Assembly (NCBI GenBank): GCA_964019135.1 | Contig: OZ025253.1 | Coordinates: forward strand, 33,220,548 to 33,284,547 | Direction of reading: 5' to 3' | Length of the DNA stretch: 64,000 nucleotides | Origin: Arenicola marina | Lineage: Eukaryota > Annelida > Polychaeta > Arenicolidae | Shown here: one piece after another, positions 25,201 to 39,402 of the stretch | Layout: each line of letters begins with the position of its first letter | Numbering within the stretch: the first letter of the stretch is position 1 | Made by a program: the position numbers and the translations under genes | The notes under the pieces: generated by a model | Databases searched by the model: none | What the model was told of the DNA's origin: nothing | Seen by the model: the letters and a program-made list of their open reading frames with translations, nothing else

Positions 25201-28200
25201 GCTTACAATAAAATTTAGAAGTGACCGCCGGGCATGATTTCGCCGCCTACCCAGGCGGCAGCCCTTTTTGGAGGTGTGTCCGCGATTGACCAATCAGGAG
25301 GCGATGGTCTAATTTATTCAAACCGGAAATTACGCCTATTGTGTGAGCAAAACAAGAGCGCGTGATCATCGCTAATATAAAGAGCTGCGAACTCCAATCA
25401 TGGCATTGTTGCGGAGTCAATCGTCGCAAGACGTATATCAATTTATTTGGATGGTGCTTTTCCATGAAACACTAAGATCATGGTCTACTGCGCGGCTTGG
25501 AACTGCCGCTGTTCATCTGTAAATCGCGGCCCTGATCTCTCTGTCCGCGAGTGATAACATAAGGCGGTGCCACATGAATAGTCACAATACGCGTTACTGC
25601 TCCCGGCAAAATGGCGCTCTTCTTGACATTGCTGGGGGCGGGTTGCCTTAATTTTCCTGTACCCGTAAATTGCCCTGATTTCGCCCCTATTCAGGGCACT
25701 TTAAAAAGCAGGTCTTATGTCAGCGCCAAAACAGGGGGTAATCAGAGCGTTTTATGGCTATTTATGTAAACTTACCAAATCAGTGCAGGGCGAATTCGGG
25801 GCGAAATAAAGGACAATTTACGGGTCTGGGGCCGTTTTCATCGCCCTGCTGCTTCAGACTTCCGGCCCGGACAGGAAAATGGCCGACTGAGACGATTATT
25901 TCATCCTAATATCGCCCTGTTTTGGCCCTGTTATACTTCCGAGTCAAGGTCGCCCTTGGCACCGGCTTCTCATTGTCCCGGGGAATTTTGTACCACATTT
26001 GAGTCTTGATGTGCAACAAAAAAAACAAAAAAACAGCAAAAGTCCGTTTCTTCCAACCCCGTTTCATTATCTCGGAAATTTATTTGTTCATGTGCACTAC
26101 ATAGGCCTAAAAACACCCAACATACCATTCCCTTTCACCCAAACCCATTGCCTTATCCCGGGACGTTTTATGACGCAATTTAACCTTCATTAATATGCAC
26201 AAAAACGCCGCTCCTATTTCATTCTCCCAGTTGGAGGCGCTGCGGAAGGAGGTTGAGATCCGGATGAAGGCGAGTGTCCAGAAGGGCCAGACGGTGAGCG
26301 GGGACACCATCGCCATGACGGTCAAGGGACCCGGACTCCAGAGGATGGTTCTCGTCGATCTGCCGGGAATCATCAGCGTAAGTGGCTCCTCCGGTTCCTC
26401 CGTCTATTTTCCGTCTGTATTTATTAACTATTGTAATATTTTTGTGTAATTATTGTAATATTTTTGTGTAATTATTGTAATATGTTTGTGTAATGATTTT
26501 AATATTTTTATTTAATTATTTTGATATTTTATTTAAGCTTATGTTATTTTATTTTATGGTTTGTTTATTTTTTTTTATTTTATATATCTATGTAATTGTT
26601 TAGTTTATTTATGTATCTATACATTTACTAATGTATTTATTTATATTAATTGTGAACATGACATTACGGAAACTAGCGCTAGCGACACAATTCGAGTTAA
26701 AATTAACGTCAAGTTAAATAATATTGCAATATGTCGTTTGCACTACAAATATCCGAGGTAACGTTCTGTTACCGTAATTGTCCTAGGCTGACCTTTGTGC
26801 GGTTTGCGGGTGGTGTGCTGCGGTAAACCATCTCTGTTGTTGTTGTTTGCAGACCGTCACCAGCGGAATGGCCGCGGATACACGTGACCGCATTCAGCAG
26901 ATGTGTAACCAACACATGGAGAACCCCAACGCCATCATTCTGTGTATCCAAGGTGAGTGCCCCCCCCCCTTCTTGCCCCAACAGCATTAATATGTGTTTC
27001 CAGGGTGAGTGTCCCCCCATCTTACCCTAACACCATTATTCTGTGTATCCAGGGCTAGTGCCCCCCCCGCTTACCCCAACGCCATCATTCTGTATGTCCA
27101 GGGCGAGTGCCCCCCCCCCCTCTTACCCCAACGCCATTATTCTCTGTCCAGGGTGAGTGCCCCCCATCTCCCTCTTACCGAAACGCCTTCTTTCTGTGTA
27201 TCCAGGGTGAGTGTCCCCCCCCATCTTACCCTAACTCCAATATTCTGTGTATCCAGGGTGAGCCCCCCCCCCCCCACCTCTTACCCCAGCGCCATTATTC
27301 GGTGTACTCTAGATGAGTCGTTCCTACTTCTTTCAGACCCCGTGATGTCACTTTAAAACCTAGTTTTTTAAATAACGGTTATTAGCAGAATAATTAGCAG
27401 ATAAGCGCGCCTAGAATACAACCGGAAAATCAAATATCTGTCTATTGGGAAAAAAGTTTTCTGTTTTACAATTAACGTACAGCATGGGGTTTCATGGGTC
27501 CTCCAGCCTGTCTTTTCTCGGCATTCTGGGTGTGATGCTATTACACAAAGTCTTTATCATCATCCATAGCCTATCAGAGATTATTCGCTCTTTGGAGATT
27601 TCCCAAAAGCGTTTGGTGGCGTATGGCTTAATAGTTTATTATTAGTCGCTCTTTTGGGATTTCCCAAAAGCGTTTGATGACGCCTGGCTTAATATTTAAG
27701 TGATGATCATGACTTTGCCTACGCATGTGGCAGATGGATCATTGGATGCGGAAAGAAGCAACGTGACTGAGCTGGTGAGCACTATGGATCCAACTGGCAA
27801 ACGAACGATATTCGTCCTGACCAAAGTGGACCTTGCAGAAACTAGTCTGTACAACCCTGAACGGGTGAGTAAGGAAATAACTAATTGAATATCATAATGT
27901 TGCTAATATCTTTTATCAATATGTTTCGATTTTATATATTTATGTCAACTTAAATATACTTATGTATTTTTTTAAATAAATTATTTCTTTATTCCATAAT
28001 TGGATAAGGTTTGCCTTATTCTACACATGGATTAACTTTAAATTTAATCCTCTTGACTTGAGCAAAGCCAATTGTTATTTTCCGTTATAATTATCTTTGG
28101 TTCATTTTTTTATTTTTTTTATTTTGCCACTTGTTCTCGTCATTTAAGATCAAGCAAATCTTAGAAGGACGTTTATTTCCGATGAAGGCTCTGGGTTACT

Positions 28201-39402: not shown

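Follow-up and report, generated by a model that had tools for sequence, protein, structure and literature searches.

The window, by which we mean the whole stretch of 64,000 nucleotides analysed here, contains a gene for OPA1 (Table 1), whose gene model, built from the window sequence, has GT-AG introns throughout and yields an open spliced frame of 988 amino acids. Residues 80 to 987 of this protein (908 residues) match human OPA1 (PDB 8ct1, E=0). Among the best 120 of its 3167 matches the highest identity is 70% (P0001), the best-scoring ones that carry an organism name come from a chiton, a nemertean and an annelid (60-65%), and the Branchiostoma floridae protein (P0091) reaches 61% identity across 90% of the query. 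A maximum-likelihood tree of 37 rows was midpoint-rooted, takes its taxa from the search output and has the Branchiostoma row on a long branch; in it the window's protein clusters with P0001-P0004 and P0030 (support 99/97) inside a wider clade of molluscs, nemerteans and Owenia (support 100/98), with Branchiostoma, acorn worms and arthropods falling outside. Judged by its OPA1 the host would be of lophotrochozoan-like lineage, and we claim nothing narrower. An amphioxus host was considered and rejected on the grounds of the identity to the Branchiostoma protein and the tree placement among lophotrochozoans.

OPA1 has 50 internal exon edges, and comparison of the 120 bases surrounding each with the window reveals that at six of them, five donors and one acceptor, tandem copies cross the edge within 3 kb. 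This edge-by-edge comparison bears out the six arrays, with their coordinates and periods, that a first-pass annotation of the same DNA had listed; its count of six affected introns out of 25 is to be corrected to five, because the arrays of the exon 23 donor and the exon 24 acceptor share intron 23, one at either end. The periods at the donors of exons 11, 20, 21, 23 and 25 and at the acceptor of exon 24 are 51-52, 88/19 (composite), 113, 54, 67 and 68 bp, respectively. Each donor unit is made up of the last 19-43 exonic nucleotides, the splice site and 22-94 nucleotides of intron, and the acceptor unit of the first 10 exonic nucleotides, the splice site and intron (22-94 nucleotides). In the exon 20 array 19-bp units, in which the donor is joined to a repeated ATATGGA block, are interspersed among the longer ones, and in the exon 23 array the donor GT is retained in the ten further copies. 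The conserved protein frame is obtained from the exon-side sites. The copies match one another at about 73-96%, and are thus not identical stutters but belong to arrays of different ages. By post hoc calculation, 1.77 of the 15 OPA1 arrays would be expected to span an edge and 6 do (P=0.004); in the automatic pipeline, where exon 21 is lost because that duplication is absent from the Tandem Repeats Finder (TRF) list, the figures are 5 of 14 against 1.53 (P=0.012, likewise post hoc). OPA1 holds 14 arrays in 23.5 kb, as against 7 in the 40.5 kb of window outside it, two of these seven being copies made by a segmental duplication.

Table 1. The OPA1 gene and the tandem arrays at its exon edges, in window coordinates
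Feature	Coordinates	Strand	Exon and arrayed edge	Unit and copies	Detection
OPA1	15910..39402	+	26 coding exons, start codon to stop codon		
Exon 11	26853..26952	+	Donor at 26952	Last 30 nt within array unit	
Exon 11 5' splice-site array	26923..27306	+	Donor at 26952	51-52 bp x ~7.5 copies; 75-77% matches; C-run in intronic half	TRF; 5 near copies
Exon 20 composite 5' splice-site array	32102..32900	+	31989-32144; donor at 32144	~88-bp units; 43 exonic nt	TRF; 13 near copies
Exon 21 5' splice-site duplication	33458..33678	+	33368-33476; donor at 33476	113 bp x 2; ~95% identical; G-run	Edge comparison
Exon 23 5' splice-site array	36088..36671	+	36003-36119; donor at 36119	54 bp x 10.8; 91% matches	TRF and edge comparison
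Exon 24 3' splice-site array	36868..37291	+	37282-37375; acceptor at 37282	68 bp x 6.3; 10 exonic nt per unit	TRF and edge comparison
Exon 25 5' splice-site array	38769..38938	+	38700-38810; donor at 38810	67 bp x 2.5; 95% matches; 42 nt of exon in each unit	TRF and edge comparison

The first-pass annotation had considered AGGT-like sequences as a trigger. OPA1 does not support this: alone among the five arrayed donors is AG/GT (the stroke marking the exon edge), those of exons 20, 21, 23 and 25 being TG/GT, GA/GT, CG/GT and CA/GT. The same point bears on the Rogers model of intron gain, as represented in PMC4974935 (which cites Hellsten 2011), in which an AGGT-bearing exon segment is duplicated in tandem: the arrays resemble it in being tandem duplications with splice signals aboard, but their units straddle an existing junction rather than an exonic AGGT segment.

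Two further features of the gene may be recorded here. The arrays of intron 23 (36120-37281) contain reverse-complementary 10-mers, ATTAACCCTT nine times on the donor side and AAGGGTTAAT four times on the acceptor side, which occur at a single other place in the window; a possible hairpin between these arrays was noted, and their unit-to-unit pairing energy was equalled or exceeded by 2 of 300 shuffles (post hoc). An acceptor-like site, TTGCAG/AACGT, lies at window positions 39187-39221, some 142 bp upstream of the true acceptor of exon 26, with which it shares the same 11 bases; it may be a degenerate acceptor copy or belong to an alternative exon.

Arrays of this kind recur in other genes of the same genome. 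The sample drawn from its 867 Mb comprises OPA1, myosins, dyneins and ion channels (165 exons), and the main counts cover 24 loci with 106 arrays delineated by TRF, OPA1 entering with five junction arrays rather than six since the exon 21 duplication is unlisted by that program. Tandem array makes up 44 of the 177 kb of these loci; 31 arrays lie at junctions, spanning 22 donors and 9 acceptors out of 165 each in the sampled genes, and 75 are interior. A Pfam myosin-head search of the genome gave 77 exon matches, and in 30 excised loci an array crosses the edge of the match at 4 of 30 donors (L013, L020, L033, L034) and 0 of 30 acceptors, a junction flagged by script at L030 having been discounted by hand. 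Additional arrays overlap neighbouring exons at L012 and L034, and the array units of L021, L026 and L030, judged by eye from myosin motifs, presumably hold exon pieces, the one in L026 being confirmed by later analysis. Ten 10-kb myosin stretches with 69 exons contain 9 donor, 4 acceptor and 42 interior arrays, and thirteen dynein heavy chain loci (53.6 kb, 59 exons) contain 9, 4 and 24, respectively; three arrays are visible in the dynein search itself as repeated partial matches spaced by 87 bp (C1), about 94 bp (C4) and about 81 bp (C1). Across loci the copy number ranges from about 2 to 83 (the maximum being a 28-bp unit over 2.3 kb in L039) and the match between copies from 74 to 100%. 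With their different periods, copy numbers and match levels the arrays represent many separate events, as the first-pass annotation had held for those of OPA1.

These counts are to be read with the way in which they were made. Exons were located only via Pfam or homology matches, so that some 'interior' arrays sit at unannotated exons, and one array was sometimes split by TRF into several rows, which inflates the interior count. The final counts leave aside L001-L035 (save via overlapping stretches) and L059. Overlapping exon matches were removed, and the exon list of L044 was edited by hand (two array copies and one over-extended match removed, one exon start reset to 1282), an edit that keeps a 40-bp array out of the junction count; in one intermediate count, two base periods and the assignment of arrays to junctions were decided manually. 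The weak rows among those counted are two donors with 4 exonic nucleotides (L039, L045) and an acceptor (L040, 6119-6242) with a weak acceptor score and more exonic nucleotides than its period.

In the null model a seed of the array's length is placed at random on the gene, array copies excluded, and either straddles one exon edge or lies in intron, the totals over the 24 loci and 106 arrays following a Poisson-binomial distribution. Under this model 31 junction arrays compare with 14.3 expected (P=6.6e-6) and 22 donors with 7.16 (P=1.1e-6), an approximately threefold excess, whereas acceptors over the same loci are at chance (9 against 7.12, P=0.28). The first-pass annotation had supposed a general mechanism favouring splice junctions. 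A general tendency, not confined to OPA1, is upheld for the sampled donors, where arrays are commoner than at random intron positions and recur in the myosin and dynein genes, but a mechanism that favours splice junctions at large is not supported, acceptors being at chance. Given that OPA1 had been chosen for looking odd and that the arrays of the dynein loci L055-L057 were visible before fetching, these loci were also excluded: the remaining 82 arrays give 15 donors against 5.24 (P=1.4e-4) and 7 acceptors against 5.13 (P=0.25), and removal of the L039 and L045 donors from this reduced set leaves 13 against 5.20 (P=0.0015). When random placement was simulated on this reduced set together with the channel loci (87 arrays), the donor figures were 15 against 5.43, and 1 of 5000 draws was as high. 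The dynein loci alone give a weaker signal, with 9 donors against 3.79 (P=0.009), and ten of them (L046-L054, L058) 6 against 2.63 (P=0.039) or, for periods of at least 45, 3 against 1.81 (P=0.27).

The positions of the arrays can also be followed along the introns. Array starts per retained kb are densest at the donor, with 1.82 over the final bases of the exon and 1.98 from -3 to +30; they amount to about 1.2 at 31-200, followed by 0.37 at 201-400 and 0.26 at 401-800 past the donor; array ends at acceptors amount to 0.73-0.79 at the edge, 1.16 at 31-100 bp upstream and 0.94 in the rest of 31-200, and farther away to 0.65 and then 0.36. The far bins come from long introns only, and these gradients are descriptive. 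Splice motifs scoring at least 5 in the 75 interior arrays are few, with 4 sense and 0 antisense donors and 6 and 2 acceptors, and the ends of four arrays, viewed by eye for microhomology, displayed nothing consistent.

An excess at donors could arise as a by-product of composition, if GC-rich exon ends, often with C- or G-runs next to them, seed minisatellites. In line with this, the GC content of junction units is 0.54 as against 0.49 in interior units, the OPA1 units at exons 11 and 21 have C- or G-runs within their intronic half, and GC weighting of the null takes the dynein donors to P=0.03 for all thirteen loci and P=0.08 for the ten. Across all loci, however, the GC-weighted null, which models GC content and neither runs nor dinucleotides, still gives 22 donors against 8.55 (P=1.9e-5), with acceptors at 9 against 8.41; moreover, the acceptor edges flank the same exons and yet display no excess. 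Part of the donor excess, but not all of it, is explained by GC, and composition as the whole explanation is possible but, in our estimate, doubtful. The strongest doubts about the excess itself concern incomplete exon annotation, composition and the few gene families sampled.

A simpler account would dispense with any bias in formation: minisatellites are abundant, some will straddle an edge, and these survive because the exon-side site works. The large share of array in the gene sequence, the preponderance of interior arrays (75 of 106), the acceptors at chance and the dynein junction total under GC weighting (13 against 9.25, P=0.096) are all in keeping with it. It does not accommodate the donors, which are threefold above the random-seed null and remain in excess after GC weighting. 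Nor can tolerance, which the first-pass annotation had offered as a possible cause, yield a donor excess over intron interiors, given that arrays deep in introns should be at least as well tolerated; by itself it is insufficient, though it may explain why acceptors lag behind. We therefore consider chance and tolerance together an unlikely explanation.

In light of the above we propose that such arrays probably form preferentially near the 3' ends of exons and are tolerated since the exon-side site is the one used. As we picture it from the sequences, a segment of about 25-165 bp straddling an exon edge would be duplicated in tandem, the exon-side copy would remain the working exon end while the others turn intronic, and the array would then expand or contract via slippage or unequal exchange. 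Arrays would also form at acceptors and be lost there more often, because an upstream copy of the 3' splice site, being transcribed before the true one, could capture splicing, whereas the extra donors come after the true donor. The bias in formation near exon 3' ends, to which the present array positions point, is perhaps tied to germline transcription or splicing; candidate steps would include slippage at runs such as the C- and G-runs of some units, base composition, and breaks where R-loops form or the polymerase pauses.

If this is the case the extra copies would be mostly silent. In 18 arrays from this genome the additional copies retain 460 of 469 core GT or AG bases; the splice-site columns are more conserved than either flank in 7 arrays and less conserved than one or both flanks in 6 (paired P=0.058). 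This borderline conservation is compatible with homogenisation without selection and also allows some selection. It is one of the observations that might favour a function, for example 5' splice-site arrays as landing pads for U1 snRNP (against premature polyadenylation) or as alternative exon ends. Likewise, 15 of 31 array periods are divisible by three (P=0.059), and use of the adjacent copy would insert an open in-frame piece in 8 of 31, the calculation using TRF periods, which in a few rows are multiples of the base unit. But the conservation and the excess of such periods are both borderline, the exon 11 copies keep just 11 of 14 GT bases, and splicing at the adjacent copy would cause a frameshift in 16 of 31 arrays and introduce a stop in 7, so that routine use of most copies is hardly possible; copies as frame-keeping exons were rejected on the same figures, notwithstanding the number of periods that are multiples of three. 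Furthermore, the exons of the muscle-type myosin and channel genes described below do without arrays. A functional role for the arrays thus appears quite improbable.

Tandem repeats of the same anatomy are known as 'mirages', a name given to exon-border repeats in amphioxus Adh3 and applied also to the globin genes BflGb6 and BflGb9 (PMC3087553); lancelet PGBD5 has them at two exons, in a report that also cites troponin C (PMC3902484). According to the relevant passages of these reports the unit measures 10-160 bp, both 5' and 3' borders are affected and the exon-side copy is the working site; BflGb6 haplotypes carry 6 and 3 units with splicing apparently undisturbed, and the mechanism is called unclear (PMC3087553). 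The arrays described here agree with them, as the first-pass annotation had recognised, in spanning the exon/intron border (6 of 50 OPA1 edges, 31 of 106 arrays in the 24 loci), in having units that carry GT or AG and in involving both types of border. They differ in that their host is not a cephalochordate, a restriction which describes the known cases and does not define the structure, and in that the rate at which they occur and their donor bias are absent from those passages of the amphioxus reports. Conversely, copy-number polymorphism, between alleles and somatically, and splicing are reported there, whereas the arrays here are known from the sequence of one assembly. Internal tandem repeats at exon-intron boundaries, suggested to be a source of introns, have also been described in human genes in segmental duplications (PMC2812944). 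These too are minisatellite units at exon edges, but by the account in that paper they belong to recent paralogs and vary between them, while the present arrays lie in ordinary conserved genes. No report of such arrays genome-wide or in lophotrochozoans was found in the open-licence literature, to which the search was confined, subscription papers lying outside it. As far as the cited passages go, the structure is of a known kind, the lineage is new, the scale exceeds that of the amphioxus cases, and the donor bias is apparently undescribed.

The amphioxus cases also furnish precedents for an artefact, in which mis-joined reads leave a stutter in the assembly: the PGBD5 copy number differs between lancelet assemblies (PMC3902484), and in one case a lancelet globin array was mis-assembled in a draft (PMC3087553), as stated in the portions cited. 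In the present genome the copies are diverged, with distinct variants and periods, many loci are alike in having them, and the window, at G000:C6:33220548-33284547, lies inside a contig of 46.5 Mb. An assembly artefact is accordingly a most improbable source of the arrays.

Genes without edge arrays provide a possible clue to the process. A myosin heavy chain gene on C4 (L041, L042, L059; G000:C4:356500-386499), which we take to be of muscle type from its clusters of alternative exons, has no array of period at least 20 in 20 kb with 22 exons, and just two small ones, of which one is apparently within coding sequence, in the next 10 kb. It is thus almost without minisatellites, whereas most other sampled loci have several; masking was rejected as the cause of their absence, as just 62 bases are N. 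Two channel stretches (PF00520, 16.8 kb) contain 5 arrays, with 0 of 22 edges spanned. Across the muscle-type myosin and the two channel loci together none of 66 edges has an array, compared with 31 of 264 in the other loci (Fisher P=0.0014), a figure that counts two edges per exon, the edges within a gene not being independent, and that stems from a comparison conceived after the muscle-type gene had been seen, to which the channel loci, tested later, add their 22. Tentatively, and at a strength well below that of the formation bias itself, these observations could point to a splicing- or transcription-coupled mutational process in the germline that duplicates 5' splice-site DNA, the arrays being a fossil record of germline transcription. 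If so, arrays would be expected to be numerous in germline or ubiquitous genes, such as OPA1, dyneins and unconventional myosins, but absent from strictly somatic ones. This reading agrees with the sample, with gene function assigned from Pfam family and known features.

So far mirages have stood, in the reports cited above, as oddities of a few amphioxus genes with an unexplained mechanism. Now that roughly one sampled 5' splice site in every seven or eight proves to carry an array in a second, distant animal genome, the mechanism becomes testable by counting. The asymmetry between donors and acceptors separates formation from selection, and the absence of edge arrays at three somatic-type loci suggests a link to germline transcription. 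In addition, the arrays are natural experiments on how the spliceosome chooses one site among many copies, and should arrays of this kind ever give rise to new introns, these might be sought in the present genome.

A further observation concerns a pair of dynein paralogs, in which the donor arrays of L055 (exon 329-417) and L057 (exon 317-410) start at the same exon position, with 65 exonic nucleotides, in units of about 94 and 78 bp, other exon matches between the paralogs being 75-94% alike. These arrays may have been inherited, converted or formed at a recurrent hotspot, and may represent one event.

As for the rest of the window, no Rfam family is present in it at gathering score. On the minus strand two long open frames (2986-5619 and 5564-6346) overlap slightly, and the one of 877 residues matches reverse transcriptases (PF00078) of the non-LTR retrotransposon type, its best match being 60% identical. 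Downstream of OPA1, at 39569-64000, a long segment is present in tandem in about three partial copies that are 83-97% alike, the first match beginning 167 bp past the OPA1 stop codon. The first and second copies are spaced by about 5.8-6.0 kb and the second and third by 9.2 kb, the latter two being 97% alike over 6.8 kb.
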